Source: a virus. Taken from it: a stretch of 29,333 nt of DNA. The DNA is taken from IMG/VR virus record IMGVR_UViG_3300032173_000637, positions 1-29,333 of that record, one strand, 5' to 3'. The notes under the pieces were generated by a model that did not search any database, had not been told where the DNA came from, and saw nothing but the letters and a program-made list of their open reading frames with translations. The translations under genes were made by a program, and so were the position numbers. Positions 1 through 28,730 of the stretch are shown piece after piece; positions within the stretch are counted from its first letter, which is position 1; each line of letters begins with the position of its first letter.

Positions 1-1266
1 CCATCCGTTCCAGTTTACCGGCATGCGCACATCAGTCATAGTGAACACTGTCGAGTGCCAGTACAGGTAGTGCCAAAAGGCCAGGAACGGATTCAGGTTG
101 CGCATCTTGACCCACGTATCTGGCTCGCCACTGTTGATGTCGTCGAGAGCAGTCGGCACCTGCTCTGTCGCCTTGATTAGGCCAGATATACCGAGCAGGT
201 GGAACGAGACGGACTTCGACTGGTCATCGAACTTGATTGAGTCTTCTGCAATCCATCCAATTCCACGAATGTTCTCACGATAGGAATCGGGTGTGCCGAA
301 AGTCTTCGGGTACACACCCCCCTGTGCATCCGTGTACTCCGTCTCCGCAAAGAGAATCACTAGGGCTCCAGGGGGGTACTGAGACGTATCTGCCTGATCG
401 TAGACAGTGACGTCCCACTCCCATCCGCCATTCTGAAGAGACCCGCCTGCTTTAGTGATCTCGAAGCTAGTGTATGGTCCATATCCGCCCAGCTCAGTTG
501 CGACTCGATCGAAGACGAACACCTGTCTGTGTGCGGTAGTGTGTGCTCCAGAAGTCGTTCCTACAACGAGAGATACTAGGTGTACTCCTGTCTCCGCCCA
601 AGTGACTTCTCCAGGTGTTATGCCACTGTAGGTAGCCGGAGTTCCTCCCTCAAACGTCCACTCCCACGAGTTTACAGAAGCAGCTCCCTCTGTCGTATAG
701 GAGTACTGACCGTCAAAGTAGACGTGGGCAGCTCCCGCTTCGAGCCACGCGACGGCATGTGAGCCCATGATAGGCACAGGGCCACGAGTCCAGTTCTGTC
801 CGTTGTACTCGAGGTCGTAGTCCTTGTACCAGGTGACTGTTGGGTTCTCTGTGGTGCCTCCTTTTACTGCACGCGGATACACACACCAGAATCGGTAGTC
901 CTTCTCCACCCACAAGATATCGCCCGTCTCCCAGCTGATATTGTTCTCAGCTACCAGGAGATCGTAGGTACTTCCTGATACCAGAGTTGCACTACGCAGT
1001 CGTAGCCGACCCTTCTCGACTGGGACTACATCCGACGTACGAACAACGACTGTAGCACCTGCCATGAACGCGAAGGTAGGATCGCCTATCCCCGAAGCAA
1101 GACATCTGAGAGTGCGAGCTCCTACAGCAGGAGATGTAGTTGTTACTTCGAACATCTCGATCATCTCTGGGTGATGAACACACAGATATGGCTTAACTCG
1201 ATGCGGGTGATCGTTCCGCACCTTATTTTGGTCTGCCAGAGCTAGCTTGTACGTAACAGGGTTCAT
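1..1266 (-). CDS. PKD-like tail protein, 3' end outside window
   Basis: The frame is open from an ATG at 1266 to the window edge (422 codons, no stop), so the C-terminus is missing. The start overlaps the stop of the preceding gene as ATGA, and GGAG lies about 9 nt upstream. I read MNPVTYKLALADQNKV at the N-terminus and a PKD/Ig-like stretch around residues 195-250 (WEWTFEGGTPATYSG, then VTWAETGVHLVSLVV), the usual turn and last strands of PKD folds. Downstream are many aromatic residues, typical of beta-rich tail proteins. It directly follows the tape measure and a small distal tail gene, where phages encode baseplate, tail-tip or receptor-binding proteins. A carbohydrate- or host-binding minor tail role is inferred from position and the PKD-like segment. 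I do not recognise a specific family. Confidence 0.75.
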   Translation of the reverse strand, partial: MNPVTYKLALADQNKVRNDHPHRVKPYLCVHHPEMIEMFEVTTTSPAVGARTLRCLASGIGDPTFAFMAGATVVVRTSDVVPVEKGRLRLRSATLVSGSTYDLLVAENNISWETGDILWVEKDYRFWCVYPRAVKGGTTENPTVTWYKDYDLEYNGQNWTRGPVPIMGSHAVAWLEAGAAHVYFDGQYSYTTEGAASVNSWEWTFEGGTPATYSGITPGEVTWAETGVHLVSLVVGTTSGAHTTAHRQVFVFDRVATELGGYGPYTSFEITKAGGSLQNGGWEWDVTVYDQADTSQYPPGALVILFAETEYTDAQGGVYPKTFGTPDSYRENIRGIGWIAEDSIKFDDQSKSVSFHLLGISGLIKATEQVPTALDDINSGEPDTWVKMRNLNPFLAFWHYLYWHSTVFTMTDVRMPVNWNGW

Positions 1267-1649
1267 GGCACAAGCTCCAGATGAGTGAATCGAATAGTTA
1301 CATCCTTGTATCCCAGGAATGCAGGTGACATCTCATCAGGAATCTTGGGACGATTCATGATCGCCCGATACATATTCCACACATTGAGATCATCGCGCGT
1401 GCGTATCGTAGCTTTCCCCGATGCTCCTGTGCCTATGAAGTGGAACAGAGCAGTCACCATGGCGTACGTGAGGTAGTCGAAAGTCCACTTGCATTGCGCG
1501 AAGCCGTCGCTGACCACGAGCCCAGAGCCCGTGATGCGCGTTACCGGAAACCCAAGCCATTCAGTATGCGGCTCGGCTATCGCAAGCTGTACTAGCGACA
1601 TTGGACTGACTGCCTGTGCGTGACCCAGTCTATACACGTTATCGGTCAT
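1263..1649 (-). CDS. Small distal tail / tail-tip protein (hypothetical)
   Basis: This 128-residue protein starts at an ATG that overlaps the tape measure stop as ATGA. A GAGGTGAT ribosome binding site sits just upstream inside the tape measure end, so translation is probably coupled. The sequence starts MTDNVYRLGHAQAVSP, has mixed alpha/beta character and no signal peptide or membrane segment. Its gene lies immediately after the tape measure and before a PKD-containing tail protein, a slot normally used by distal tail or tail-tip components. The function is inferred from position only; no catalytic motif is visible. Confidence 0.75.
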   Translation of the reverse strand: MTDNVYRLGHAQAVSPMSLVQLAIAEPHTEWLGFPVTRITGSGLVVSDGFAQCKWTFDYLTYAMVTALFHFIGTGASGKATIRTRDDLNVWNMYRAIMNRPKIPDEMSPAFLGYKDVTIRFTHLELVP

Positions 1650-4600: not shown

Positions 4601-7600
4601 CTGAGTTGACTGCGCCATTATCCTATTGAGGTCCTCTTGATTTGTGACGACCGCACCAATACCAGCACCCCAAATACGCAGCCCCTCAGCAACCTCTGCA
4701 GGCTTGAACAGGCCAAGGGTCTGCGCAGTATCCTTAATCGCCTGCTCCAACATCGGCATCTTCTCAGATGGAAGGCTAATGGCGGCCGCAGCACGCGTTG
4801 CAACCTCACTAAGCTCAGCGTACTCTTTGCCCATGTCACTAAGAGACTTAATGATGCCACTACCCCAACGTTCGAGAACTCTACCCGACTCAGCTAGAGC
4901 GTAGCCAGCACGCCTAAGTCCGAAGTACTTCATCGTACCTACGTTGATCGCCTGTGATAGAACGTCAATCTTAGTGGCTAAACTCATAGCCACTTGCTGA
5001 TTGGTTCGCATCGCCTTAGTGCCCGCTTCTATCGCCTGAATTCTATATGGGTAGCGAAGTGGATCGGGCATCGTAACGTTAGGAATCGTAGGACCACGAG
5101 CTTCCTTCTCGATGGTAGCTCCCTGTCGACGAGCTCTGATGTCAGCATCTATCATCCCCTGAACGGCGGGGTGCACCGTCTTGCCAAGGTCATCGACTGC
5201 AGCTGCAGCATTAGTTGATGCAGAAGCAAGCCGTCTATCAGCTCCAACCTGTTGTACAGTAGCCGCGGTGACCGCGCCCTGCACAGGGGGCAGGGAAGCT
5301 TCAGCGGAAGTAACGACCTTTGTTGCGTCGTCCAACGCCTGCTTAGCAGCTATTGCTTGCTGGTCTAAGGCAACAACCTTGCGAACCGACTCTTGCTTGT
5401 TGGCTTCCTCAGCATCCATGAGCGCCTGCATCTTAGCAGCGCCCTGCTCCCTCTTGCGTAAGAAGCCCTCTTCCTCAATTCTCCTTTTGTCTTCGAGAGC
5501 GGCCAACACATCGGCCTGCTCACCCGTTGGAACAGTCCCTGCAGCCTGTGCAGCAGCTATGTCCTTTCCCAGCTCGGCCCACAGGGTCTTCTGCTCTTGA
5601 TTCAGAGCATCCAATCGAGCGATAAGATCTTTCTGCCGCTCTATCTGCTCGGCAGCTAGTCCTGCCCTTACTCGCTCGAGGTCTCCTTGCTTTGTCCATA
5701 TGTCTAGGCGCTCTACACCTTGACCCTCGAGAGCCACTTGAGCAGCACCCGCTCCCTGCGTCTTAGTTAGTTCCGCGATGTGAGCGTCTAGAGCTGCTAG
5801 CCGATCGGCAAGCTCCTTCTCCGATGCAACTAGCTCAGATCGATCCTTGCCCTTCTCAGACAAGATGGTTTCGAGTTCTCTCGTGATGGCTGTACGCTCA
5901 GGCTCCTGTGCTTCTCGTGCAGCTACTATCTCTGCAGATCTCTGTGTGAAAGGAGCCTTCGCAGCTATCTGTGCCGTTGTCGGTAGCTTTCCTGCCTTGC
6001 TAGCTGCAGCGAACTCTTTCTCTAGTGCTGCAGCTGCTCTCTCGTGTGCCGCAGTGACTGCAGATAGCTCTTTAGCAAGAGCTTTCTGCTGTACGAGCAG
6101 GGCAGCCTCTTGGTCTGTCTCGTCCTTGATGACACGCTTTTTCTCGGCGGATATCGTGATTAGTTCGTTTTGCTGCTTGACGCCTTCGCTAGCCGCACGA
6201 GCCTTTACTTCATCCAGCTTCGCCTGTATCTGAGCTTGTATAGCAAGTTGCTCTGCATCGAAGGGATTTGCCTCTTTGGCTGCTATCTCTGCTGCGACTG
6301 CTGCGGTAGCCTTAGCAGATACATCTGCTCGCTTCTGGTCGATAGCTACTGCAGCGGCTAGGGCCACGACGCCCTTAGTGGTCATCTCGGCGTCGACTTT
6401 TCTCTCTTCGATCAGTGCATACCCAGCCTTTACTGATTCTTCGGTAGGCACTATGCTGTTAGCCATCGATCGACCGACTGAAGCAAACTGCTCTGCTAGA
6501 GCGCCAGAAGCCAAAGCAATGTCGGTATTCTGCCAAGGCTGTAGCTGCACTCCCGGAACCAACGCATCCGCTAATGTTCCGGGACGTGACTGCATAAGGG
6601 CTTTAGCTGGCCACGCCTCTAGGTACTTCTGCAAGAACTGGAATATTGCTTTGTCGACCTGCTTCTGATAGTTAGGCGGCAGAACGCCAGCGCCCGCACC
6701 AATCACTCCAAGGTTTATGACACGCTGTTGTGCAGGACCAGCATTTGTAATTTTACCTAAGTACTTGAGTACGTCGGGAAGCCGTAGATTAGCCTCCCGA
6801 ATGGACTCCAGAAACCACTTCATGGGGTCCTTTTCGCGAGCGCCTATCGTTAGGTTGTCCCACTCAACCATGATCCTGCGCATGCCCTCCGAGACGAGCG
6901 TTATCTCCTTCTCGCTTAGCGCACGCATGTTCTCATAGTTGCTCATGCCTACTTGCTCGGCATAAGCCGCCATGGCGTTAACGCCTACTCTAACGTGCTC
7001 TGGGTCGCCAAAAGGACCTAGGTCTCCGGTCTTTGCCATCTCCTCGCTGAGCTGTTCAACCGATATGCGTATCTTGTCTAGTGAAGGAGGTACGTCCGCT
7101 CGAACCTTCTGGGCGCCTGCTTCTATTATGGCTGCCTGGTTAGTAGACTCCTTAGTGTAGTAAGTCTCATTCGCGACACTCTTCAGTGCTCCAGCAACCT
7201 GTAGCAGCTTAGCCTTTAATTCCACAAGGGCTGCAGGAGACATCAGTCCTCGATCAACGCCCCCGACGCCCTTGAGCTCCAAAAGTGAAGCACCAATATG
7301 AGTCGCGTGGCCTTCGATAGCTTCGCGCTTCTGTAGACGCGTCTGCAACGGATCGACTGTGACTAGACCAGCCATCAAGTTGGCTTGTCTGCCAACTAGA
7401 GACGATCTCCTCCCGGGCTGACCTGGTAGAAGCGCGGTTGCCTCCGCAAGGTACCTTATGAACTCTTTGACTCCAATCCCAGCGTTCTTGCAAGCGAGCG
7501 TAAGCGACTCCGCAGGACGCACCATGAGATCGGTGTCGCTAAACTTGCCTAGCTCGATCACCGCCTTGCGAATATTGTCAGGTACCTCACTGACCTGCAT

Positions 7601-10306
7601 CTTTCGCGTTCGCTCTGCCTGAGTTGTACGACCTGCTGCCTTGGCAACTTCGTTGATTGTAGCAGCCAACTTGAACGCAGCAGGATCTGCCTTTCTCACT
7701 TCGCTAGCGACACGTGCAAGCGAAGAAGCAAAGTCATGTACGGCGGCAGCATTCGCTGTTTGAACAGATTCCGGAGCAGTTCCCCCTATCTGCTCCTGAG
7801 CCTTAAAGGATCCCAACAGCTTTAGCAGTGCAGCGGAAGCCGCAAGGTTCCACTTTGCTGTCTGTTCCTCAGACGCTGATGTCGTTCCGGGACGCCCCGC
7901 CTCAAGGCCTGTCTGTAGGATCTGAGGCCCTACCGGACCCATCGACTGACTGCGTAACTTCACCATTTCGGCTATCTTAGCCATTACGTCGGTGACTTGT
8001 ACACCAGCCTTCTTAGCAGCTTCTTCAAAGGCCAAGAATGGGTTGGTTGCAATCATGTCCTTGTTAAGGGTCCCCATCCACCAGATAACCTTAGTGACTA
8101 GGTCGGGTATGGATGAGTGACCAACTATCTCATCGTAGGCGTGCTGAGCAGCATCGATAAGGGCTTGAAAAGCATCCTTGCCAATGTCAGGCCAGCCCAT
8201 TGCTTCGGCCTGTGCATACGCTTGCTTAAGCTCAGCAAGTACTGTATCGGGTCCTACAGGAGACGCTCTCTGAGAGATCGGAGCTACTCGTCCCATAAAG
8301 AAGGAGCTGTATTTCTTCAACTCCTCGGGATCTATATCTAGCTCTGATGGGCTAATCGATCGCTCGGCCTCCTGTAAAAATCCAGCTACCTTGGGAGCCA
8401 TCTGGCTGTATAGTTGAGGATTCGTTGTGAACTTAGCTTTGTAGAACTTAGCAGCCTGGTCGGCCCACGTCTCGATAAACGTGTTTGTGATAGTGCTCTG
8501 GAGGTGCTGGCTCCACTCTACCATCTGCGGTGCTAGAGCCTTCACACCTTCATCAATGAGACGGTCGGTCTCTTCCTTGTTCAAGGTACGACCGATTACG
8601 TCTTGAACACCATGCCCAAGGACCTCATGCAAATAGGTAGTGACGAGAGAGCCGATCCGTAACGGCAGCAGTTCGCCTGTCTTGGGTAGTGACTGAACTG
8701 AGTTTACCTGAACCTCTGGCTGAGTTGTCGGATAATAGTTTCCGAGCGCAGTAGCAGAGATCCCACCGTACCTTGTGGTAGAGATGAACTTATCCAGGAG
8801 ATCTCCGATAGGTAGGGTCGACTTCACCTTCTCTGCAAGAGCTACCAGAGCCTGATATCTCTTCTGAAGATCCTCAAGGATATCTACTTGCTCTCGAAGG
8901 GTACCTAGGCTCTCTTCCGGAATCCCCTGTGCAAGCGCGCTATCGATGAACTGCTTCATCCGAGTGATTTCTTCTATGACAGCGCCAACCATCTCAGGAA
9001 CGATCGAGTGACCGACAATCTCATCAGACATCTGCTGAGCGTTTGCAGTTACTGAAGCGAACACATCAATAGCAGCTACTTCTTGTTCCGCCTCTGCCAT
9101 CGATGATGGAAACTCTTTTGCAATCTTCTCGAGCTCCGCTTTTACCTTCTCATAGCTAGCTGCGAGAGACTGAGGAATCCTTCCCTCAAGCTTCTGTAGC
9201 TCAAGGGCGTTAGCAGCCCACTCGGCCGTCTGCAGACCCGATGATCGGTAGTCGTATCCTCCAGACTGGAATCGTGGGCTCGGGTACTCTTCCATCTGTT
9301 TGTACGGATCGACAGCAGCTCCTCTCTTGTTCATCTTGGTCAAGAAGGCTGCAGCATCCGCCGAGACATCCTGAGGATTCATGAAGTACTCAGATGCGGT
9401 TCTGGCCCACGTCTCGAAGAAGGCAGTGGTAAGATCCGACTCGTACTTGACCATGAACTCAGCCATCTGAGGCGCGAGAGCACCAATGCCCTCTTTGATT
9501 ATCTCGTCTGTCTGGGCTTCATCCATGCCGCGAGTGACCATGTCCTGCAGACCATGACCAAGAACCTCGTGAGCAAATGTTGCGACCATCTGCGTGAAGC
9601 TATGTAGTGCACCGCCCTGCGAGTTGAAACCAGATGCAAGGTTTACAGATGGCTCATATCCCACCCAAGGACTTCCGGAGCTATAGGTGCCAAAAGCCTC
9701 CGGATCCGTTGTGCCATACTTCGACTTCCCAGCCACAAACTTATTGAGGTTTGCAGCTACAGGAGAGGTCTGAACCTGCTTCCCTATGAACTTGGCGAGG
9801 TCTTGGTGTATGGTTACGATCCTGTGAAGTTCGGCTTCGTAATCCCTAAGACCTTTCGCGGTCTCAGGAGACATCCCCTCAGCAAAGACAGTTCGCATGA
9901 ACTTCTTTACTGATACCAACTCTGCATAGATCCTGGCAGCCATATCAGGAATGATCGAGTGATTGACAAGCTCATCGGCCATAGCCTTAGCGCCCACGAT
10001 CAAAGGATCGAAGACGCCTTGGTAAGCAACACGAATTCGTGCAGCAGATGCTTCTGCAGCATCGGCAACACTAGAGAGAGCTACGTTTACGCTCTTGGCA
10101 CCTTTGACTAGTTTCTTCCAGTCTTCAGTGCGACCGGCAATAGTTGAGCTAAGAGCTTCTAGAGAGGCAATTGCCTTTTGCGCACCAGCAATGCCTATGT
10201 CTCCAGCTAGCTCCTTAACAACGTTAGCTCGTATCGCCTTAGCGTAACCAGAAGCTTTGTCTTCAATTGTTACTTGGAAAACGTATCCAGGTTTTGTGTC
10301 AGCCAT
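1646..10306 (-). CDS. Tape measure protein with duplicated zincin-like domain
   Basis: Sets tail length and is threaded through the tail tube. I chose ATG 10306 (GAGG about 7 nt upstream, overlapping the previous stop) over GTG 10318; this gives about 2,886 residues, very long for the family. Order by residue: two copies of a domain with HEVLGHG near 246 and 560, each followed 47 residues later by ETWA; the tape-measure motif DE(L/I)V.HS(I/S).PD near 111, 429 and 725; Ala/Lys/Glu coiled coil about 1300-1700; a TP901-type tape measure core about 1790-2110 (LRRAGYALAESG onward); hydrophobic segments near 2200-2230 and 2290-2320 that could insert in the host membrane; and a highly charged coiled coil about 2450-2775. 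The core assignment is strong. Protease activity of the HEVLGH repeats is inference. Confidence 0.95.
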   Translation of the reverse strand: MADTKPGYVFQVTIEDKASGYAKAIRANVVKELAGDIGIAGAQKAIASLEALSSTIAGRTEDWKKLVKGAKSVNVALSSVADAAEASAARIRVAYQGVFDPLIVGAKAMADELVNHSIIPDMAARIYAELVSVKKFMRTVFAEGMSPETAKGLRDYEAELHRIVTIHQDLAKFIGKQVQTSPVAANLNKFVAGKSKYGTTDPEAFGTYSSGSPWVGYEPSVNLASGFNSQGGALHSFTQMVATFAHEVLGHGLQDMVTRGMDEAQTDEIIKEGIGALAPQMAEFMVKYESDLTTAFFETWARTASEYFMNPQDVSADAAAFLTKMNKRGAAVDPYKQMEEYPSPRFQSGGYDYRSSGLQTAEWAANALELQKLEGRIPQSLAASYEKVKAELEKIAKEFPSSMAEAEQEVAAIDVFASVTANAQQMSDEIVGHSIVPEMVGAVIEEITRMKQFIDSALAQGIPEESLGTLREQVDILEDLQKRYQALVALAEKVKSTLPIGDLLDKFISTTRYGGISATALGNYYPTTQPEVQVNSVQSLPKTGELLPLRIGSLVTTYLHEVLGHGVQDVIGRTLNKEETDRLIDEGVKALAPQMVEWSQHLQSTITNTFIETWADQAAKFYKAKFTTNPQLYSQMAPKVAGFLQEAERSISPSELDIDPEELKKYSSFFMGRVAPISQRASPVGPDTVLAELKQAYAQAEAMGWPDIGKDAFQALIDAAQHAYDEIVGHSSIPDLVTKVIWWMGTLNKDMIATNPFLAFEEAAKKAGVQVTDVMAKIAEMVKLRSQSMGPVGPQILQTGLEAGRPGTTSASEEQTAKWNLAASAALLKLLGSFKAQEQIGGTAPESVQTANAAAVHDFASSLARVASEVRKADPAAFKLAATINEVAKAAGRTTQAERTRKMQVSEVPDNIRKAVIELGKFSDTDLMVRPAESLTLACKNAGIGVKEFIRYLAEATALLPGQPGRRSSLVGRQANLMAGLVTVDPLQTRLQKREAIEGHATHIGASLLELKGVGGVDRGLMSPAALVELKAKLLQVAGALKSVANETYYTKESTNQAAIIEAGAQKVRADVPPSLDKIRISVEQLSEEMAKTGDLGPFGDPEHVRVGVNAMAAYAEQVGMSNYENMRALSEKEITLVSEGMRRIMVEWDNLTIGAREKDPMKWFLESIREANLRLPDVLKYLGKITNAGPAQQRVINLGVIGAGAGVLPPNYQKQVDKAIFQFLQKYLEAWPAKALMQSRPGTLADALVPGVQLQPWQNTDIALASGALAEQFASVGRSMANSIVPTEESVKAGYALIEERKVDAEMTTKGVVALAAAVAIDQKRADVSAKATAAVAAEIAAKEANPFDAEQLAIQAQIQAKLDEVKARAASEGVKQQNELITISAEKKRVIKDETDQEAALLVQQKALAKELSAVTAAHERAAAALEKEFAAASKAGKLPTTAQIAAKAPFTQRSAEIVAAREAQEPERTAITRELETILSEKGKDRSELVASEKELADRLAALDAHIAELTKTQGAGAAQVALEGQGVERLDIWTKQGDLERVRAGLAAEQIERQKDLIARLDALNQEQKTLWAELGKDIAAAQAAGTVPTGEQADVLAALEDKRRIEEEGFLRKREQGAAKMQALMDAEEANKQESVRKVVALDQQAIAAKQALDDATKVVTSAEASLPPVQGAVTAATVQQVGADRRLASASTNAAAAVDDLGKTVHPAVQGMIDADIRARRQGATIEKEARGPTIPNVTMPDPLRYPYRIQAIEAGTKAMRTNQQVAMSLATKIDVLSQAINVGTMKYFGLRRAGYALAESGRVLERWGSGIIKSLSDMGKEYAELSEVATRAAAAISLPSEKMPMLEQAIKDTAQTLGLFKPAEVAEGLRIWGAGIGAVVTNQEDLNRIMAQSTQIQMLAAMNNAALAGTTTQVGGAISEFGLTMADTERVVSIFNYTAAKTFASLDDVGDSFRMVGPLAKTLGLSIEETAVAFGILANANIRGTMAGRAMRQMLLLLTDHTKEYDDAMNRALGYTGMMQDQWKDIVFPGGEFIGLAKYIDLLTAATERYTQAEKVAFFSTIATTSEVPALVTLTDLQTKARERGINAIRAWTDIQKGVTTRETGQFKVLMEEVTKTTFSMENAYKLFGEMSNKYAQSTQTATKRMETAWSNARTSIGEAWQKLMLPTLTAAAEAVESLSKIVQRVPALATLAGVIGGGAAIIGALLSVAGVLAGFASNYLILKIAAGEYAAATATFMQAVLMFSASQGIEGKIPVPGDQSLKKLLTGLVEGTWIVSVGKTVASAAIVAAKVAIPALLVYVGGMVAARTVMPKEMKAKNPYLGNREDAGLAPLVGKPFALGKDILALSFAAVNLQVMNLATLIGVSDEATKRFGHSAYNAAIAMSSAVTQAKLLGNWQTQNAQEAARWRELYDPYGMNSGIMATPKRGLSSEEVEALKRFDELQKAIVERRKEAVDALNELDKQYFEQWEQTDKEYYDRLAQLDADYQEQKYEAWNALLDKMAEMRENYGDKLIDIEQSYQDKLADIAEGYQEKLADISAGYNEKMADIDQKNVEAREKIMEEYYKNLKRMAEDHNDSLDDLIRERDARGILKEMQRYEKERRRAEEDKDERLAEQEKAAQKEREEAAKEAEKARQEAAKDRDRAYADAAKDREKAREEARKDLEKALADARKQWEKEQQERDNALAKQKEKEAAAHEKMEAEQKEAYDKEYAALNQKLKDDVKRLQDAAADEIAELRKSNDQKKIEMQAYYDELNNKLEDFLKRRAALLAAYGVNPEDPLFGKTGEYKLPEPAPLPAPVGLGFSRSSSEVLANQLMSMMVSGQIARSGGSRGGVSVEVRQVDWRFQGSFTNADKEWFRREARDAAYAAMDDVLTEVIK

Positions 10307-11606: not shown

Positions 11607-11626
11607 GTGTGCTCTCCTGTTGAGCT

Positions 11627-11655
11627 GGTGGGAGCCCCGAAAGAGGGCTCCCACC
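11627..11655 (-). terminator. Strong stem-loop between major tail and chaperone genes
   Basis: A perfect 11-bp inverted repeat (GGTGGGAGCCC and GGGCTCCCACC, 7-nt loop) lies in the short gap between the major tail stop at 11677 and the chaperone start at 11606. On the transcribed strand it is not followed by a run of T, so a full intrinsic terminator is doubtful. It more likely acts as an attenuating or mRNA-stabilising hairpin that keeps major tail protein levels above those of the downstream genes. Function is inferred from position. Confidence 0.6.
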
Positions 11656-11676
11656 TACTACATGACGAGTGTTAGA

Positions 11677-13027: not shown

Positions 13028-13286
13028 CGCTTCCCTCCGGTTCTACAGTTACTTCATCAATCACCTCCACAACCGCAAAGTCCATATGATTCTTGCAGTC
13101 AGTACATAGTAGACGTATTACGGGATCTTCAATAACAATCGCCAGTAGTACGCTACCGCACTTACTACAAACAAAGAAGCCCTCCTCTCCACCAGTACTG
13201 GGAGGCCCCGGTATGATGAAGGCTCCTTGATCCGCGTCTTCGTCCCGCGGCTGCACAGGGGGAGTGGTGGGGATTCGAGAGTTCAT
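13020..13286 (-). CDS. Small zinc-ribbon protein
   Basis: The 88-residue protein has two CxxC knuckles, CSKC (about 41-44) and CTDC (about 62-65), separated by a short beta stretch, which is a zinc-ribbon pattern. The N-terminus is Pro- and acid-rich (IPTTPPVQPRDEDADQ) and encodes one copy of the repeated 10-mer CCCCCTGTGC. Its ATG overlaps the stop of the preceding connector gene as TAATG. It lies among head-tail joining genes, so it could be a small virion or assembly factor, but nothing shows this directly. I do not recognise a named family. Confidence 0.75.
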   Translation of the reverse strand: MNSRIPTTPPVQPRDEDADQGAFIIPGPPSTGGEEGFFVCSKCGSVLLAIVIEDPVIRLLCTDCKNHMDFAVVEVIDEVTVEPEGSDG

Positions 13287-14337: not shown

Positions 14338-16565
14338 TAGTGGCCCTCCTCCTCAACCGATTCGGGCTTGTGTCCAAGCCATCCGCGATTTCGGTGGACA
14401 CGTAGGTACATCAAATCACGTGCCCCGTGAACTCGACCAACTGCTACGATCTCGGATCTGCCCACTAGGATCGCGAAGCTGAATATAGTATCGACAGCTT
14501 GGCTACCCACACTACCCTTGCCTTGTAGGTTGACCGATCCCAAGATCAGTAGTACTCCCGTTGCCTCTATGATTCCACCTGCTCGTAAGACTGCACTTCC
14601 GCTAACGCCGCCAGTCTCGATCTCGCCCCCAGCAACAACATCACCTGTACCAGTAAGCACTCCACTCGCCTGTACCTCTACGAGTGCTCGTGCACTTGTA
14701 TCTGACGTTCCGTCGAGTACGGCCTGCGCTTGCACAGTGGGCAAGCCAGCGGCCTCGAGAGCGGAAGAACCGGTCAATGTTGCAGCTGCAAGTGCGGTAA
14801 CCAGGCTATCGGCCTCGAGAGCGGCAGTTCCCTCTAGTACGGCATTGGCAATGATCTGCAAGAGGCCTGCTGCCGAAACCTCTCCGCTACCCTCCAGCAC
14901 TGACTGGCCATACACCAGAACCAGGCCGTCTGCATCCAAATCCCCTGTGCCTTCAAGAAGGGCGTTCGCGAGTGCCTCGTTTAATCCGAGCGCGCTAAGA
15001 TCCCCTGTGCCTTCAAGGGTTCCAACAGCTAGCGAGATGTTCAACCCCGCAACGACCAGATCGGCGGTGCCCTCGAGTGTCGCTCCTGCAAGAGCCTCGT
15101 TCAGTCCTGCTGCAGCTATTTCCGCAGTTCCCTCGAGAGTTGCAACCGCAAGCTCCGTAACGATCCCTGCTGCTGTGACTCCTCCCGTACCCTGAATGGT
15201 AGCCACACCACTAGTCGTTAGAGCACCGGCGGCGGTTATCGACCCCTTCCCTTGGATTGTAGCTGCTCCGCTAGTCGTTAGGACACCTGCAGCTGTTACA
15301 GCGCCTTTCCCTTGGATCGTAGCGGTAGCTATCTTAGTCATCAACCCCGCAGCAGTAACCGATCCCTTTCCCTTGATGGTCGAAGTCGCAACCTTGGTTA
15401 TCAGACCTGTTGATGTTATGGAGCTTCGGCCTGATAGCGTAGCTGAACCAGCCCACCGACCAACAAATGTAGCGTAGATCGAGTTCTTCTTGTCGTCCGT
15501 TACATAGTCAGACGGATCTGTCGGCGTCGTGTAGCTGTTTGAGAGATCGTACCTTCCTGCATTGGATAGCGTATCGTAGTACGACCAGGTTGCACTCAGG
15601 TTACAGATCCGATATAGCTGGAACGAAGCGTTGATAATCTCCGGCTTAGTTGCGAATGTCGACGTATACCACCCAGCTGCACCGATCGTACCCGTCGAAC
15701 CTCCGACTCCATTTGTCAGGATGTAGCCAAGATTGTCGGCAATAACCGCTTTGACGGTGCGACCCGTGTTAAGGTTCTGCGTGTATAGCTTGATGTTGGT
15801 AACGTCACCAAAGTCGATACTGCCAGCTGCATACTGCGATCCATGAAGGTCGTCTCCTGCAGCACTTACCCACGTCGTTCCACCAATACCAGTGAACCCA
15901 AAGGTTGGGTCGACGTGGACCGGATACTTAGCCTTGTTCATCCAGGCTGTTGGCAGATCTATGGTCAGCTGATTGGTTACCGTGTTGACATTGAGTACGG
16001 CCCATGCCGTATCACCTTTGTCGTCGATCAGCTGCGGTCGGTAAAGATGAAACGCTTTGCCGACCTTGTATACCTTACCCCCTTCAAAGTTAGGAGGACA
16101 GTCTTTGTAGAAGACTGCGTACGAACCAACCACTCTATCGGGTCGGTTGTGTCCGTCAGCAATCTCAGTCGGTGTCAGGGTCGGCTGGTACCAGAACTCT
16201 AGGTTCCTCGACAGAATGTTGAACGTCATCCTGTCAGAGCTCGGCCTCTTGTCGAAGATCGTGTCGAACTCGAACGCATCTTCGATAGTTGGGTCGATCG
16301 GGTAGAACTCGACCGACACGCCGCCCTTCGACCACTTGACCTTACTGCCATCCTCGGAAGTAATAGCAGTACCTACTTGAGCATCGACTAGCTCTAGCGC
16401 GAAGCTAACCTCGTTGTCCCACCGCTCAATCGCCAGCTTCGGTCTGAGTGCATCAACCTTAGCATCGATCTTGTCCTTAGGATCCTTACTCTTCTCATAG
16501 AGATAGTAGTCACCTTTGGGATCGATTATCTTCTTTGGCTTGAGATTGGGATCAGGAGTTCCCAT
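14337..16565 (-). CDS. Structural protein with C-terminal 20-residue repeats
   Basis: ATG 16565 is preferred: AGGAG lies 7 nt upstream, whereas the longer reading from 16598 overlaps the preceding gene without a site. This gives about 742 residues starting MGTPDPNLKPKKIIDPKGDY. Residues 1 to about 360 form an aromatic- and beta-rich head (PVHVDPTFGFTGIGGTTW). Residues about 365-690 are some fifteen tandem 20-residue repeats with pattern A.ATL.GTG.L.AAGL...., and a basic tail ends in EEEGH. Such small-residue repeats are common in phage fibres and head- or tail-decorating proteins and suggest a beta-solenoid or fibrous stalk. Its place between capsid-side genes and connectors points to a head- or neck-attached fibre. 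It is a plausible acceptor for the adjacent glycan cassette, but that is inference. Confidence 0.8.
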   Translation of the reverse strand: MGTPDPNLKPKKIIDPKGDYYLYEKSKDPKDKIDAKVDALRPKLAIERWDNEVSFALELVDAQVGTAITSEDGSKVKWSKGGVSVEFYPIDPTIEDAFEFDTIFDKRPSSDRMTFNILSRNLEFWYQPTLTPTEIADGHNRPDRVVGSYAVFYKDCPPNFEGGKVYKVGKAFHLYRPQLIDDKGDTAWAVLNVNTVTNQLTIDLPTAWMNKAKYPVHVDPTFGFTGIGGTTWVSAAGDDLHGSQYAAGSIDFGDVTNIKLYTQNLNTGRTVKAVIADNLGYILTNGVGGSTGTIGAAGWYTSTFATKPEIINASFQLYRICNLSATWSYYDTLSNAGRYDLSNSYTTPTDPSDYVTDDKKNSIYATFVGRWAGSATLSGRSSITSTGLITKVATSTIKGKGSVTAAGLMTKIATATIQGKGAVTAAGVLTTSGAATIQGKGSITAAGALTTSGVATIQGTGGVTAAGIVTELAVATLEGTAEIAAAGLNEALAGATLEGTADLVVAGLNISLAVGTLEGTGDLSALGLNEALANALLEGTGDLDADGLVLVYGQSVLEGSGEVSAAGLLQIIANAVLEGTAALEADSLVTALAAATLTGSSALEAAGLPTVQAQAVLDGTSDTSARALVEVQASGVLTGTGDVVAGGEIETGGVSGSAVLRAGGIIEATGVLLILGSVNLQGKGSVGSQAVDTIFSFAILVGRSEIVAVGRVHGARDLMYLRVHRNRGWLGHKPESVEEEGH
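14540..15455 (-). repeat. 60-bp tandem coding repeats (about 15 units)
   Basis: The repeats encode the 20-residue units of the structural protein. Unit examples are ATSTIKGKGSVTAAGLMTKI and AVGTLEGTGDLSALGLNEAL. Neighbouring units keep near-identical DNA blocks 60 bp apart, for example TCCCCTGTGCCTTCAAG at 14941 and 15001, so units have been copied recently or are being homogenised. Units nearer the N-terminus carry IQGKG and distal ones LEGTG, showing two sub-groups. Unit number could vary between relatives by recombination. Confidence 0.85.
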
Positions 16566-16584
16566 GTGAGCTCCTACCCTTCGT

Positions 16585-16980: not shown

Positions 16981-17976
16981 TTACGCTTCTAGGGTTGCTA
17001 CCGTTTCAGCGTCCGATACATACCCCAAGGCTTCGAGTCGTCTACCCATGATGTTTGTAGCAATTGGAGTCGATGCTGGGAACGGGCTTCTAATTCCGAA
17101 CGCTCGTAGGATGAGCGGAGCGACATCCAGGTTACGCCAGCCATCACGATCATCTGTTAGATTACGAATATCTCCATCGGCAACTAGCATTCCCACACGG
17201 GTATGCGTACCTATGTCCACGTTCTCTACGGGTCTGCTGAACCCATGATCAGACACAATCAGTAGATTCTCCGGATGTAGATGAAACAGAACGTCCATGA
17301 TTGCATGAGTAACTACGCCACACGTGCCGAGAACGGTCTTTGTCAGACCCCAGATGTGCGCCATTCGATCGATATAGGTGAACGTAATCCACCCGAAGTC
17401 GAAGAACCGAGCACGTGTAGCAAACCACTCAGCCATCTCGATGCTGCTCAACCTAATATACTCGAAAATGTTAAGAGCGCCTTGTAGCTGGTACTCAACA
17501 TTCTGTGGCCAGTCATCGTGCCATCTGCCTTGTCCCAGATACGTTCCGAAGTGGTTTAGGTCACACATCTGAGCCCACCGTAACGGTACTTCTGGCATGT
17601 ACGTAGGCCACGTGAACGCCCTAGGATCGATTGGACACCCCCCTACGTGAACTCCGTTTATCTCGCGTACCGGCGAAGCACAGGGGAGGTTGCAGAGGAT
17701 CGATCGGAAACCCTTGGTCGCGAGCCGATCCCAAACCATCTTTCCCTTTAGGTCGGCATACGTCTTACTCATCGTGCCGAGCACCTTTAACGGTCTCCCC
17801 AGAACCTCGGTTACTCCATGCTCAAGTATGGACAGACCAGTGTACATAGTCGTCCATGACGGTCCCGACATGGCTACTTCGATATCGAGTGACTTGATGG
17901 GCAGGGTCTGACGAATAGCCATCCGTCTGAATAGGTCCGGTGATAGACCGTCAAGTCCAATCACTAAGAGCTTCAC
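16981..17976 (-). CDS. Alkaline phosphatase superfamily phosphodiesterase
   Basis: I start at GTG 17976 (MKLLVIGLDGLSPDLF), which overlaps the upstream stop as GTGA; a TTG at 17991 is the alternative. The 331-residue protein has the type I phosphodiesterase/nucleotide pyrophosphatase signature: LLVIGLDG with a metal-binding Asp near residue 9, PSWTTMYTG with the Ser/Thr nucleophile near 40-43, FTYIDRMAHIWG with metal ligands D and H, LLIVSDHGF near 235-245 and GTHTRVG for the last His. Family members cleave phosphodiester or pyrophosphate bonds or transfer phosphoryl-alcohol groups. It is the last gene of the glycan cassette, so it could hydrolyse a nucleotide sugar or add or remove a phospho-substituent. 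The superfamily is secure; the substrate is unknown. Confidence 0.85.
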   Translation of the reverse strand: MKLLVIGLDGLSPDLFRRMAIRQTLPIKSLDIEVAMSGPSWTTMYTGLSILEHGVTEVLGRPLKVLGTMSKTYADLKGKMVWDRLATKGFRSILCNLPCASPVREINGVHVGGCPIDPRAFTWPTYMPEVPLRWAQMCDLNHFGTYLGQGRWHDDWPQNVEYQLQGALNIFEYIRLSSIEMAEWFATRARFFDFGWITFTYIDRMAHIWGLTKTVLGTCGVVTHAIMDVLFHLHPENLLIVSDHGFSRPVENVDIGTHTRVGMLVADGDIRNLTDDRDGWRNLDVAPLILRAFGIRSPFPASTPIATNIMGRRLEALGYVSDAETVATLEA

Positions 17977-18506
17977 AATTGTACCATCCAAATATTCCCA
18001 TGCGGGTCAGGAGTAGTCACACGCGACTCAGGAAAGCGATCAAGTACAGCGGGTCGGACTTCTGGCCAGCTCTTGAAGTCATGTCCTACCAAATGTCCTC
18101 TCGGGGCTATCTTAGTAGACCATGCGTTGATGTCCGCAATGACCGACAGGCGATCGTGTGCACCGTCGATAAACACGAGATCGAATACGTAGTCTGGAAG
18201 ACGCTCGGCAGCACTCACTGATGGCACACGCCAGAGGTGTGCACGCGCGCCACGACCTATAGTCCATTTCGAAAGTCTCTCAGCAGCTCTCTGATAGTCG
18301 TTGTCCCATAGCTTCTGATCCTGTCCGCCCATCGTTCCGTCGTTGTACTGACGATATGGGTCGATCAGATAGATCATGCGTAACTGGTCGTAGCATGCTT
18401 CGAGAATCGCAACTGCATTGTCTCCAACGTTTACGCCTATCTCGGCAAACGACACTACGTGAAACTCTCGGATGAGCTTGATCAGTGTTTGACTATGAGT
18501 CTCCAT
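17973..18506 (-). CDS. Class I SAM-dependent methyltransferase (Methyltransf_24 type)
   Basis: ATG 18506 (METHSQTLIKLIREF) has TAGGAG 4-5 nt upstream and follows the radical SAM stop by 10 nt; the longer reading to 18623 only overlaps that gene. The 177-residue protein has motif I FAEIGVNVGDNA (about 20-31), an acidic strand end in MIYLIDPYRQY, and DLVFIDGAHD (about 104-113) followed by APRGHLVGHDF, the pattern of O-methyltransferases that modify sugars or glycan-linked groups. The GTGA overlap with the phosphodiesterase suggests translational coupling within the cassette. A role in methylating the glycan product is inferred from neighbours. Confidence 0.85.
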   Translation of the reverse strand: METHSQTLIKLIREFHVVSFAEIGVNVGDNAVAILEACYDQLRMIYLIDPYRQYNDGTMGGQDQKLWDNDYQRAAERLSKWTIGRGARAHLWRVPSVSAAERLPDYVFDLVFIDGAHDRLSVIADINAWSTKIAPRGHLVGHDFKSWPEVRPAVLDRFPESRVTTPDPHGNIWMVQL

Positions 18507-18516
18507 AGGTCTCCTA

Positions 18517-19377
18517 TCAAAAATGTGTGGCACACGCGGAGCACAGGGGGATGTCAGACTTCGACCCATCATTATGACACTTGCGAATTGTCTCAAGCGC
18601 TTCCCCATTCCACACAGCAGCAACTCCGTTGTCGAATACGTTTCCCAAGGGTAGTGTCGGCTTGTAGTCCATACAGCACATGACGAACGTTCCGTCGGTG
18701 AGAATGTTGGCTACCCCGAACGGGGAGTAGCACGGACCCTCTGTGCCATGTCGTGATAGTGCAGGATCTCTGTCGGCTCCTCCTCTACCGTCGCATGGTA
18801 GATATGAAGCCTCGTCAACACCCTCTTGAGTAGACCACCGTCGAATGAACTCTCCAAGATCGTTTAATGTCTCAGGCTGTACGGTCATGTGCACACGCGT
18901 GCGCACAGGGTGCCGCATCTGCTCGTTCAAGTGAAGGAACTTTAGGATGTTCCCGATGACCTGAGCCCACGACAGACCCCTTCGAATTCTCTCGTACTTC
19001 TCCCGGTCGACCGCATCGACACTGAACGTAATCCACTTCAAGCCTGCATCGATGAGGTCCTGTGCTAGCGTCTCAGTGAGCAGCGACCCATTGGTGAAGA
19101 AGCCTATCTTCGCTGCAGGCAGTGTCTGCTTCGCTCGCATCACCATGTCCACGATGCTCGGGTTCATTAGAGGCTCGCCGTAGAGCGACAAGCTTATCGT
19201 ATCGACCCCTCCAGCAGCTCTTGCCTCGTCGAGAATGGACTGATACTTGTAGATGCACATATACGCAGGACGTGTGTCGAGCTTGCCGTACGGACACATG
19301 GTACAGCGCGAGTTGCATCGGGCTGACGCCTCGATGTTCAGACTCTGTGGGAATGGCTCCTTCACAAAGGTAGTCAC
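18517..19377 (-). CDS. Radical SAM/SPASM enzyme
   Basis: GTG 19377 is chosen because it overlaps the upstream stop as GTGA and has GGAG 8 nt upstream; the longer frame merely runs into the preceding gene. The 286-residue protein carries the radical SAM cluster motif CNSRCTMC at residues 21-28, the SAM-contact segment ISLSLYGEPLMNP and a core with WITFSVDAVDREKYERIRRG. The C-terminus has a SPASM-type set of Cys (GPCYSPFG, FVMCCMDY, IPLCSAC) that would hold a further iron-sulfur cluster. SPASM enzymes modify peptides or act as oxidoreductases, epimerases or dehydratases on other substrates. Sitting between a glycosyltransferase-methyltransferase fusion and a methyltransferase, it probably alters a sugar, though peptide modification cannot be excluded. 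Confidence 0.88.
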   Translation of the reverse strand: MTTFVKEPFPQSLNIEASARCNSRCTMCPYGKLDTRPAYMCIYKYQSILDEARAAGGVDTISLSLYGEPLMNPSIVDMVMRAKQTLPAAKIGFFTNGSLLTETLAQDLIDAGLKWITFSVDAVDREKYERIRRGLSWAQVIGNILKFLHLNEQMRHPVRTRVHMTVQPETLNDLGEFIRRWSTQEGVDEASYLPCDGRGGADRDPALSRHGTEGPCYSPFGVANILTDGTFVMCCMDYKPTLPLGNVFDNGVAAVWNGEALETIRKCHNDGSKSDIPLCSACATHF

Positions 19378-22198: not shown

Positions 22199-22220
22199 TA
22201 CCAGTTCCCCCTCATGAAGG

Positions 22221-23432: not shown

Positions 23433-23471
23433 AGCATTTCCTCCACGTTCCGATTGTGCCGCTTTTGCGGA

Positions 23472-24554: not shown

Positions 24555-24563
24555 GATGCCCTC

Positions 24564-26126
24564 CTAAGCGTTCGTGTCCGACGCATTCCCAGCAGGCACA
24601 GGTTGTCTGCCGTTCCCGTTGCCACCCGCAGGCACAGGGGGCTGGTTGGGTTGAGCTGCAGCCAACGCAAGCGCTTCTTCCTGCTTCTGCGCGTTCGCTT
24701 TTTCAATCCGCTTATACATTTCGGCCCACTGATCAGGCCGGAGGTTCATGATCTGTGTAGCGACAAACTCAGCATCGACCACTCCGAGGTCAGCGAGTAC
24801 CTTTGCTGCCTGTGCTTGGTTGTGGAGGATCTGCGATTGCTCGAGCTCGTCCCGACGAGATGGGTTCGGCCAATCAATCAGGTACTTCACCGAGCCTGGG
24901 TTGATTCCCTCAAGGATCAACTGCACTATGATCAGGTGCGACACTAGCTCGCTCAACATCGCCTGGACGCGACGAACCGTTCGAGCAAACCGTCTGTCCT
25001 CGTAAGCGAGCGTCGCCTTTGAGTTGATGTCCTTCTCGATCCCCAGGTACGCCTTCGGAACGAGCAAGCTCGCCATGATCTTGTCGCGGTAGTACAATAG
25101 CGGATCAAGATTAGAGAACGCAGTACTTGAGGTATCCAGGACTTTCACATCGCCCAGGCCTGGATACACTTTACCACCGAACTCTCGGTAGCCCGTGCCG
25201 ATGAAGATGTCCTTCACGACACTCAGCTCATCCTTGCCAACGACACCCGACGAGATCTTCTGCATCATCAGGTCTCGCTTGAACTTGCGAACGAATGCCT
25301 CTGACTCCTTGCGGCTCATGCCAGAGGTGTCGACGATGAACATCAGACGGGCAAATGCACGCGTGAGCCAGTTAGCGCACATTGCCTCTTCCATCGCCTT
25401 CAGCTTTTGCCACGACACTCTCGCAGTAGCTAGAAGCGAACGTCCGTACGGACTCGCTCCACTTCGGTTCCAGCGGAGGTGCTCGATCTGCCACGGGTAG
25501 AAGCCTGCCAGGAACGTATCCGAGCCAATCTCTTTCTGCTCAAAAGCCCAGGAGCCTGTCTCCGTGCCGTCCATCAGCAGACCTTGCGGGTCCTCGTTGC
25601 GGAACATCGATCGGGGTGGCATGAACATCAGTCGAGAGATATCCATACCGCTGTTGACTACAATCTGCTGGAAGTTGTCGCCGTACAGGAGCGCATCGCG
25701 TGCAACTCCTACGATCTTCTCCTTCAGCTTCGTACGCTCGAGCATGTCTTCGACGATTGTCTGTGTGCGTACGGAACCGCCCCTCTGAAACACGACGCGA
25801 AACGGCTCCTGCGAGCCTCCCTCAGAGTTCACTGCCTCGTCGGCAAGGATCTGAAGAGATGCTGCCACCTCATCAATCGTCCGCTCCATCTCCTCGACGT
25901 CGGAGTAAACCTCGAAGCGGGTACTCGACTGAGGGTCGAAAGCCTTAGTCCATCGATTCCATGTGGCGTCAAGAAGGCCAACAGTGGTATCATGATCATC
26001 GGGAGCTGGATAGTCCGCCTTGAGACCAATCACGCGTGCAATACGCGCGCGCAGTCTGTTTGTCCAGGGCTCGACCCTGGTTAGCTCGTCGATCGTGGTC
26101 ATTACAGCACCGTTACCGGAAACCAT
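24564..26126 (-). CDS. Portal protein, T4 gp20-like
   Basis: ATG 26126 has GGAGGAG 6 nt upstream and overlaps the terminase end by 25 nt; a second ATG at 26102 would form a TAATG junction but has no site. The 520-residue protein shows the gp20 pattern: DALLYGDNFQQIVVN, a middle segment GGKVYPGLGDVKVLDTSS, and LLYYRDKIMASLLVPKAYLG followed by the YEDRRFARTVRRVQ helix. Portals form the dodecameric DNA channel at the capsid vertex and dock the terminase. The C-terminus is low complexity: QPPVPAGGNGNGRQPVPAGN contains a doubled PVPAG unit and one copy of the repeated 10-mer. The call is secure. Confidence 0.92.
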   Translation of the reverse strand: MVSGNGAVMTTIDELTRVEPWTNRLRARIARVIGLKADYPAPDDHDTTVGLLDATWNRWTKAFDPQSSTRFEVYSDVEEMERTIDEVAASLQILADEAVNSEGGSQEPFRVVFQRGGSVRTQTIVEDMLERTKLKEKIVGVARDALLYGDNFQQIVVNSGMDISRLMFMPPRSMFRNEDPQGLLMDGTETGSWAFEQKEIGSDTFLAGFYPWQIEHLRWNRSGASPYGRSLLATARVSWQKLKAMEEAMCANWLTRAFARLMFIVDTSGMSRKESEAFVRKFKRDLMMQKISSGVVGKDELSVVKDIFIGTGYREFGGKVYPGLGDVKVLDTSSTAFSNLDPLLYYRDKIMASLLVPKAYLGIEKDINSKATLAYEDRRFARTVRRVQAMLSELVSHLIIVQLILEGINPGSVKYLIDWPNPSRRDELEQSQILHNQAQAAKVLADLGVVDAEFVATQIMNLRPDQWAEMYKRIEKANAQKQEEALALAAAQPNQPPVPAGGNGNGRQPVPAGNASDTNA

Positions 26127-27940
26127 CTTCGCTCCTCCACGTGCTCTGCACTCTCTTCATCGTCAGGTGCTTTGCTGACGTCTCGTACGTAGGCCGCTAT
26201 CGTATCGTCAGCCAGATCGTCCCACTGCGACCAGGGATCTTTCTCGGCCACTGCCATTTCTGCTCTGGTTAGACGTTCGCCATACGTATGAATGTCGCTC
26301 TGCAACGTACTTACTGAGTTGAGTGCATCCCACTGCTGTGCTAATCGCCAAGCCATCTCGAGTGCGTCTAGTGCATCGTCCTCGCCACCACCGCCAGCTT
26401 GCTCTAGCTCAAGCTCCAGGTTCTCTTGTCCTCTATTGCATACCAGAATGTACTCGTTCTCCATGTCTGGCTGCAGCGATTGAATCCTGAGTTCCTTCGC
26501 ACCCCTGTGCGCCTGCTGAATGGGCACGATCGGAAGATATGTGCCGTCTTCCATCGATGCCTTAGCCGACTGCGTTGCGTAGAACGCTTGGAACTGTACT
26601 GCTTCAATACCATACCGGGAGAACGTGTACTGTCTTCCCCACTTGTTCTGATCCAACATGATCTGGTCAGGGGGCCGACGCCTCTTGTCGACCTCTAGCA
26701 CAAATCCCTGACCCATAGGCGACTTCGCCATGATGACGATAGCTGACGGATCCGATCTGAGGTTCTTTCCTAGCGAGGGATCAGTCGCACCAAAGATTGC
26801 ACAATCAATGAGCCGAACCGATGGACGACCATTGAGCGGTACCAGCCACAGCTCAGGAATCCCTTCAGCGCTTTTGCGAAGCTGCTTTTCATACTTGCCC
26901 CACTTCTTGAACAACCTTGTCTCGGGGTCGACCGGTTCATTCTGTAGTTCCATTGCGAACGACGAAGTTCCCTCGGACACCCTCATCGTCATTAAGTCGT
27001 AGTACGTGTAGGCCTCAGGCCATGCAGTCTCAACACCCTGTAGCATTTCCCTACGATGTGACAGGAAGTACTGCCGCGCAGTTAGCTCCTTCGCCGGGTC
27101 CGCCAGGTTCGTCAGAATCTGTCGCCACTCCTCCCACAGGTCCTCCCGATCCGCCCAATGTATCACTGCCTTGTACACTTTGCTCTTGAAGAGCGGATTC
27201 TTCGCAAGTCTCGCAGTCAGACAATTGAAGTGGATGAAGTTGCCGACTACGACTACTTTCGTATCGTCCCACCCAGCACGCATCACAGACCGAGTGAACC
27301 ACTCCCAGGTTCCTTCTCGCTGCACATCGCTTTGGACGGCCTTGATTTCCTCTGGATCGTCTACGACGATCAGGTCGGGGCGCCACTGCATGTATTTGCG
27401 CCCACGGATCTTCATCCCCGACCCCAGGGCTGACACCTTCACCAGGTTGCTCGTCTCGATGTCGTCTTCCTGCCACTTGCGCCCCCGAAAGCTTCCGAAG
27501 TCTTCCTCGATGCGCTCGTTGTGTTCCAGGTCGTCTTTTATCGTGGCCAGCTGGCCCTTCGCCTGTGACTCCGAGTCGGAGATGACTAAGATGTGATGGC
27601 GCTTCGTAAACACGATCGCGTACATCGGGAGTCCGAGTGTTGCCCACGTTGTCTTCGCATGACCACGCGGCCACGCAAGAACTTGGTTAGCCCTCCCCTT
27701 CGTCTGAAACAGTGCCTGGCACTCTAGTGCAAACTCCCTGTGCATCTTCGCAGGCTCTTTGCTGAAGTGCTTACCTAAGTAGAACCTGCAAAAGAACTCG
27801 ATGTCGATCTCTGCTAACTGTACACGAAGACTCTTGTCCGGTCGCTTATCAAGCAGTCCCGAAGACTCCAACGTTCCAACGTCGAAGTTCCGCAGGAGCG
27901 CTTCCTGTATTAGTCTTAGATCAAGATCCGTCAGGTTCAT
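26102..27940 (-). CDS. terL: Terminase large subunit
   Basis: The 612-residue packaging motor starts at ATG 27940; an in-frame TGA lies two codons upstream, so no longer start exists. The ATPase domain has a Walker A-like WPRGHAKTT at about 90-98 and Walker B LIVVDDPEE at about 190-198. The nuclease domain has an Asp in GATDPSLG (about residue 387), and EDDALDALEMA near 520 carries later metal-binding acids. It packages DNA into proheads and cuts it at the end of packaging. The ribosome binding site (GGTGA) is weak, which suggests coupling to an upstream reading frame. This is the landmark gene for orientation of the head module. Confidence 0.97.
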   Translation of the reverse strand: MNLTDLDLRLIQEALLRNFDVGTLESSGLLDKRPDKSLRVQLAEIDIEFFCRFYLGKHFSKEPAKMHREFALECQALFQTKGRANQVLAWPRGHAKTTWATLGLPMYAIVFTKRHHILVISDSESQAKGQLATIKDDLEHNERIEEDFGSFRGRKWQEDDIETSNLVKVSALGSGMKIRGRKYMQWRPDLIVVDDPEEIKAVQSDVQREGTWEWFTRSVMRAGWDDTKVVVVGNFIHFNCLTARLAKNPLFKSKVYKAVIHWADREDLWEEWRQILTNLADPAKELTARQYFLSHRREMLQGVETAWPEAYTYYDLMTMRVSEGTSSFAMELQNEPVDPETRLFKKWGKYEKQLRKSAEGIPELWLVPLNGRPSVRLIDCAIFGATDPSLGKNLRSDPSAIVIMAKSPMGQGFVLEVDKRRRPPDQIMLDQNKWGRQYTFSRYGIEAVQFQAFYATQSAKASMEDGTYLPIVPIQQAHRGAKELRIQSLQPDMENEYILVCNRGQENLELELEQAGGGGEDDALDALEMAWRLAQQWDALNSVSTLQSDIHTYGERLTRAEMAVAEKDPWSQWDDLADDTIAAYVRDVSKAPDDEESAEHVEERRWFPVTVL

Positions 27941-28055
27941 GCGTCACCAGTGGTAGGCCCCTCGCTGTCCCCTCGCGGCTCTCGGGAGGCACAGGGGGAA
28001 GGGAGCGTCGAAAGAGAGACGCGCCCAATGGGATCCGCGAGACTGCTAGAGGAGG
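27921..28055 (-). pseudogene. Putative 3' remnant of the gene interrupted by the HNH body
   Basis: After the HNH stop codon the same frame stays open to a TGA at 27921-27923 inside the terminase start. It reads RRSLPPVPPESREGTARGLP and ends THEPDGS. PPVPPE repeats the N-terminal PPVPPE of the HNH protein, in the same frame exactly 591 bp (197 codons) away. Removing one repeat and the DNA between leaves a 72-residue frame that overlaps terL by 20 nt, in keeping with the operon. No start codon with a site is visible, so it is probably not translated on its own. Confidence 0.45.
27985..27999 (-). repeat. 15-bp direct repeat, copy downstream of HNH body
   Basis: Minus-strand TCCCCCTGTGCCTCC, identical to 28576-28590 and followed in both by a GAG-containing stretch. 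It includes the 10-mer CCCCCTGTGC found elsewhere in the window. This copy lies between the HNH stop and terL. Confidence 0.85.
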
Positions 28056-28730
28056 TTATGCTAGCGGAACGCCCCACGGATCGGTATATTCAGGAATCAC
28101 GTTCAGATATGCGAACTCGCCATACACTTCGATGGCCTTGTGGTTGTAGGCCAACGCGGCGAGCTCCTGGTTAGGGAACTTAGATCCAATGTAGTAGGTG
28201 TGCCCTTCGCTCGTGATGGCCGACTCGTAATGGCCTGTACGCTTGTTCAGCCACACACCCTTGTATTCCGAGGTTGTGCCATCACGTCGCTTGCCGATGT
28301 TATGTAGGTTAGCCGCATGCGAGCAGACACGAAGGTTCAGTCGGCGATTGTCGAGTGAGTCGCCGTTAATGTGATCAACCTTCAAAGTCATAGGTGCACC
28401 TGTGATCTCTCGGTGCATCTGGATCTTCCCACCGCCCTTGCGCCATCTCGTCGCGATGCCGTATCCAGCCACATCCTCGGAGTAGTGCCACTTGTGCATA
28501 TTTAGTCCGTGAAAGTCGGCCGCGTCTACGATCGCGTAATAACCTTTAGAGAGAATGATGACCGCAGCGCCCTCCGGAGGCACAGGGGGAGGTGAGTCTG
28601 CTTGGAGACGAGTGTGAACGCTCCGTGTTCCTTCTGCCATCGCACGTGCACGTAGCTTGGCAACAAGGTCGACAGGAATGTTGGGATCTGTTCGAATAGG
28701 CTCGGTGGCATTCACACTCGCGTCAGTCAT
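28056..28730 (-). CDS. HNH-AP2 homing-type endonuclease
   Basis: The 224-residue protein starts at ATG 28730, overlapping the upstream stop as ATGA with AAGGA 6 nt before it. Residues about 57-144 are an HNH_3-type domain: YYAIVDAADFHGLNMHKWHY, MHREITGAP, KVDHINGDSLDNRRLNLRVC and NLHN, with the expected His, Asp-His and Asn residues. Residues about 155-210 are an AP2-type DNA-binding domain (SEYKGVWLNKRTGHYESAI, then AALAYNHKAIEVYGEFAYLN). HNH genes often sit beside terminase genes and either spread as homing elements or assist packaging. Residues 1-50 are unlike the HNH family and end at PPPVPPE, where the HNH domain begins; they may belong to a gene into which the element moved. Confidence 0.9.
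   Translation of the reverse strand: MTDASVNATEPIRTDPNIPVDLVAKLRARAMAEGTRSVHTRLQADSPPPVPPEGAAVIILSKGYYAIVDAADFHGLNMHKWHYSEDVAGYGIATRWRKGGGKIQMHREITGAPMTLKVDHINGDSLDNRRLNLRVCSHAANLHNIGKRRDGTTSEYKGVWLNKRTGHYESAITSEGHTYYIGSKFPNQELAALAYNHKAIEVYGEFAYLNVIPEYTDPWGVPLA
28576..28590 (-). repeat. 15-bp direct repeat, copy inside HNH N-terminus
   Basis: Minus-strand TCCCCCTGTGCCTCC encoding PPVP just before the HNH domain starts. Its partner is at 27985-27999; the distance between copies is an exact multiple of three. Confidence 0.85.

Follow-up and report, generated by a model that had tools for sequence, protein, structure and literature searches.

Polarity of Chi is a trait of host chromosomes and is not a requirement in phages. 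The DNA uptake sequences of Neisseriaceae and Pasteurellaceae are likewise features of the bacterial chromosome, and non-palindromic words of 9-10 bp that occur on both strands and in flexible frames are typical of uptake sequences. With regard to phages, lambdoid phages without a recombinase of their own strongly over-represent Chi, at 0.2 per kb (Bobay, Touchon and Rocha 2013, PMC3784561), and these Chi sites cluster between the origin and the packaging site (PMC3784561). Here we describe a 9-bp word, CCCCTGTGC, and its 10-bp form, CCCCCTGTGC, which very probably represent a real DNA recognition signal and which, as far as tested, are confined to one clade of uncultured T4-like phages.

The window, that is the whole 29-kb stretch of DNA analysed, is a free-standing virus record without its surrounding genome, in which nearly all genes lie on the minus strand and no tRNAs were found. 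It encodes an HNH endonuclease, the terminase large subunit, a T4-like portal and a T4 gp23-like major capsid protein, in addition to glycosyltransferases, a radical SAM/SPASM protein, methyltransferase and phosphodiesterase domains and a tape-measure-like protein of 2890 residues. The genes for a T4-like capsid (gp23) and a T4-like portal (gp20), at 22221-26126, are combined with a terminase whose best matches among cultured phages are Mushuvirus and BalMu-1 (37% identity) and not the T4-like phages. In the capsid-to-tail interval (16981-22195), the glycosyltransferases and the radical SAM/SPASM, methyltransferase and phosphodiesterase domains form a block, with similar blocks in relatives, that possibly serves the modification of the virion or of the host surface. 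The tape-measure-like protein (1646-10318) contains the motif HEVLGHG twice (FAHEVLGHGLQD and YLHEVLGHGVQD) inside repeated segments, and this motif resembles a zinc metalloprotease signature.

By exact-match counting on both strands, the window holds seven copies of CCCCCTGTGC, its most frequent 10-mer, and twelve of the core CCCCTGTGC, at exactly the positions listed in a first-pass annotation of this DNA for seven 10-mers and five extra 9-mers. Six of the 10-mers are on the minus strand, where they lie within the tape-measure-like gene (5281..5290, encoding PPVQ), close to the start of the gene at 13020-13286 (13253..13262, PPVQ), at the 3' end of the radical SAM/SPASM gene (18541..18550, IPLC), in the C-terminal linker of the portal gene (24632..24641, PPVP), in the intergenic region that separates the HNH and terminase large subunit genes (27989..27998) and in the N-terminal linker of the HNH gene (28580..28589, PPVP). 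The seventh, on the plus strand (318..327), is antisense to a tail-region gene (3-1268) whose coding strand reads AQGG at this point; this diversity agrees with the earlier remark that no single peptide lies behind the copies. The extra 9-mers comprise one minus-strand copy in the phosphodiesterase-like gene (17678..17686, encoding LPCA) and four plus-strand copies antisense to the tape-measure-like gene (8924..8932, coding strand AQG), a repeat protein (14942..14950 and 15002..15010, both with coding strand GTGD) and the terminase large subunit gene (26502..26510, coding strand AHRG). The pair at 14942 and 15002, previously taken to be a single internal repeat, is indeed one protein repeat (GTGDL) in two copies. 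The protein encoded there (14337-16598) has 753 residues with many short GTG/GKG repeats (xLEGTGDLxAxGL) and no PHROGs or Pfam match.

Under Markov models of orders 1-4 fitted to the window, 0.02-0.07 copies of CCCCCTGTGC would be expected against the seven present (simple counting had previously given about 0.06), and in windows simulated under the same orders the top 10-mer of any kind reached 3-5 copies, never seven. The Poisson probability of seven copies given 0.07 is ~1.5e-12, uncorrected for the choice of word; models of order 5 or above are trained on the word's own copies and account for part of the excess by construction. A codon-matched comparison, also suggested in the first-pass annotation, places CCCCTGTGC far above its null. 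In this analysis of nine contigs, based on automatic gene calls that contain a few wrong-strand ORFs, the proteins were kept fixed and the codons resampled according to the usage of each contig in 300 runs, which gave 30 coding copies of CCCCTGTGC against 1.7 expected (~18-fold, with a maximum of 6 in the 300 runs) and seventeen coding copies of CCCCCTGTGC against 0.65 (maximum 3). When every 9-mer was scored under this null, CCCCTGTGC ranked first with a log-likelihood of 51.9, against 9.1 for the best unrelated word. The copies are partly dependent, through homologous positions (HNH, portal and radical SAM) and the repeat pair 14942/15002; with homologous and repeat copies counted once, the excess is by our estimate still more than tenfold. 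Since the excess persists with proteins fixed and codons resampled, the copies are maintained by selection at the nucleotide level, whichever strand they are on and in several reading frames. In the proteome of the window, all four PPV tripeptides are written as CCC CCT GTG.

Eight related contigs (116.5 kb) came out of the terminase, portal and capsid searches; they show 45-56% identity in the capsid and have their genes in the corresponding order. All contigs are fragments carrying chiefly structural genes, and the enrichment figures apply to that gene set. In five of these relatives (88.9 kb, coding strand, window excluded), the top 8-, 9- and 10-mers are CCCCTGTG, CCCCTGTGC and CCCCCTGTGC, the last with seven copies against 0.02 expected, and the comparison with related phages proposed at the outset thus puts this word in first place in independent relatives as well. 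Conversely, distant capsid relatives (at most 30% identity, GC of at least 0.49, ~180 kb by our sum) contain no CCCCTGTGC, none of six contigs with distant HNH relatives carries the word, and a search for further tail-gene relatives returned the query contig alone. One of the close relatives, G003, has a terminase large subunit (L010:3142-6156) of 1004 residues, with an insert of ~390 residues at Walker A (GHGK/CDVAE...VVHN/TSWAV) that, from its sequence, looks like an intein.

Individual sites show both conservation and turnover among these phages. In the HNH genes of the window, G005 and G006, only 28% of identical residues use the same codon in all three, yet the site reads CCC CCT GTG in each of them, and no other stretch of three codons was found to be shared by the three genes. 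The portal linker word is present in the window and in G006, with nine of its ten bases in G005. The radical SAM site has the same codons in the window and G001 and is lost in G003 (CCA TTA TGT). G001, in turn, lacks the terminase site at 26502 through a synonymous Arg codon. As the differing homologous columns of the radical SAM and terminase genes are ungapped, the word is gained and lost by substitution. The excess beyond codon choice, the first rank in relatives and the codon conservation at the HNH site together uphold the DNA-level signal put forward in the first-pass annotation.

Over the window and its relatives, CCCCTGTGC occurs 32 times in ~146 kb, or 0.22 per kb. It is a short (9 bp), non-palindromic word with one G-rich strand, found in several frames and on both strands without significant bias over all contigs (19:13, p = 0.38; 7:5 in the window). 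The skew of the window's 10-mers towards one strand (six of seven), to which attention had been drawn, is not significant (p = 0.13) and is weaker in the 9-mer. Similarly, the NNCCG thought to follow the word is not conserved, with no clear motif 3' of the 32 copies; the only clear flank signal is a C-rich tendency upstream, the base preceding CCCCTGTGC being C in 19 of the 32. For the core TGTGC, virtually no excess of one-mismatch neighbours was observed among the 32 copies, and recognition is sharp because mismatched cores are not in excess. A phage promoter or terminator element was considered and rejected, as 30 of the 32 copies are inside called genes and not upstream of or between them. 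A packaging signal (pac/cos), suggested earlier, is unlikely since the copies span the whole contig.

The best explanation, held tentatively and by analogy, is that CCCCTGTGC may be a Chi-like recombination signal of the host. On one strand, GCACAGGGG would be recognised by a host end-processing nuclease-helicase (RecBCD, AddAB or AdnAB class): entering from a broken or unprotected phage end, the enzyme would halt degradation at GCACAGGGG and load a recombinase. The phage would thus survive breaks and exploit host recombination, for instance for concatemers, with sites on both strands serving ends that come in from either side. Several observations count against this reading. The strand polarity is not significant (19:13, as above) and the sequence of GCACAGGGG is unlike that of any Chi motif known to us. 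It neither equals nor is one base away from the E. coli motif GCTGGTGG; since motifs related to GCTGGTGG are conserved just in E. coli relatives (PMC8022716), this excludes a Chi of the E. coli type and leaves room for the Chi of other hosts. In the literature searched, CCCCTGTGC never appeared alongside 'chi site', and the matches to GCACAGGGG came from unrelated human, dog and mouse studies.

The search for a host bears on the same question. No enrichment of CCCCTGTGC was found in 398 Pseudomonadota genomes, with a peak of ~37 per Mb, it was at background in 78 Bdellovibrionota genomes, and plasmids of Prosthecochloris, Trichlorobacter and Isosphaera held 0-1 copies in 50 kb; the lack of an enriched host in these two phyla and three plasmids counts against a Chi-like signal. 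Two spaced-pair scans of IMG/VR, of low power and low expected yield, returned mainly collagen-like and other repeat genes and no unrelated word-rich virus, which also speaks, weakly, against Chi, since a host signal might recur in the host's other viruses. An 87-kb virus record, L142 (G428), carries five CCCCTGTGC within 17.8-29.0 kb, on both strands and with dissimilar flanks, and is possibly another enriched virus. With regard to the origin of the relatives, G005 and G006 come from a co-assembly of Ace Lake, a lake in Antarctica whose anaerobic candidate phyla have been investigated (PMC8542988), and the host may therefore be an anaerobe from a poorly sampled phylum. Green sulfur bacteria were also considered as hosts in view of the Ace Lake origin, and the one Prosthecochloris plasmid tested contained no copy.

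In the main rival reading, which is less probable, a phage DNA-binding protein would bind the word and so tag the phage's DNA for packaging, compaction, recombination or self/non-self recognition. The candidate reader is the terminase-adjacent HNH endonuclease with an AP2-like C-terminal domain (28056..28730, minus strand), whose HNH_3 match is above the Pfam cut-off. In the window, G005 and G006, its gene is flanked by those of the terminase subunits and contains the word, and in the window one CCCCCTGTGC copy is found directly downstream of it. A cyanobacterial AP2-HNH domain reportedly binds G/C runs. Furthermore, the enrichment tracks the phage clade and does not extend to distant capsid relatives with comparable GC, and none of the searched host genomes is word-rich. 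However, the AP2 match of this protein is below the Pfam cut-off, the HNH-AP2 gene was not seen in the available parts of the word-rich G003 and L041, and the contigs of distant HNH relatives are without the word. We regard as doubtful the more specific proposal that a T4-like clade keeps a 9 bp address word genome-wide, which a phage protein, possibly HNH-AP2, would read to recognise its own DNA, and we are just as hesitant about its second part, that such recognition would act in packaging, recombination or attack on competing DNA. We know of no described phage system with such an address word.

It is unlikely that the word is a non-Chi signal used host-wide, for example a DNA uptake sequence or a chromosome-organising motif, carried by the phages through shared or exploited host machinery. 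Its form would suit an uptake sequence, being a non-palindromic word of 9-10 bp found on both strands in flexible frames, but phages do not need uptake, and no enriched genome was found among the Pseudomonadota and Bdellovibrionota searched. An mRNA-level element, CCCCCUGUGC, acting in the translation, stability or regulation of structural transcripts, seems more unlikely still. The 10-mers are on the coding strand in 6 of 7 cases in the window and 14 of 19 overall, and the enrichment over the codon null is higher in sense (~31-fold) than in antisense (~11-fold). Nevertheless, the coding antisense copies of CCCCTGTGC number 12 against 1.1 expected, which disfavours the purely RNA-level signal that had been entertained; relative L041 has four CCCCCTGTGC in 16 kb, three of them antisense, and word positions relative to genes vary.

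The footprints of a small mobile repeat, another early suggestion that would suit many exact copies at scattered positions, are very improbable, as the copies share 9-10 bp and a C-rich tendency and nothing more, without defined common ends, and the turnover is by point changes in ungapped homologous columns, with no insertion or deletion of the word seen at clean empty sites. The least probable reading of all, that chance, composition or Pro-Pro-Val linkers produced the word, draws on the several copies that encode PPV, but chance and composition were ruled out by the Markov nulls of orders 1-4 and the peptide by codon resampling, with the ~18-fold excess left when peptides are fixed, and several frames, both strands and independent relatives agree.

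If the word is Chi-like, it would provide a sequence fingerprint tying uncultured phages to their host and a first clue to the recombination signal of that host; if a phage protein reads it, it would represent a novel means by which a phage labels its genome. Among known systems, cyanobacterial HIP1 (GCGATCGC) shows a similarly extreme genome-wide excess of one short word (PMC4390886). HIP1 is palindromic and methyltransferase-linked, whereas CCCCTGTGC is non-palindromic and was seen with no link to a methylase. The DNA uptake sequences of Neisseriaceae and Pasteurellaceae are likewise dispersed words of 9-12 bp, on both strands and tolerant of frame, but their sequence differs and the present word is known from phage contigs alone. 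Compared with Chi in recombinase-less lambdoid phages, the word itself is different (GCACAGGGG here, GCTGGTGG there). Nonetheless, the length and the G-rich strand are like those of known Chi motifs such as GCTGGTGG (PMC8022716), and the likeness to lambdoid Chi extends to a short, non-palindromic and mostly intragenic word with one G-rich strand, at 0.22 per kb here and 0.2 per kb in those phages (PMC3784561).
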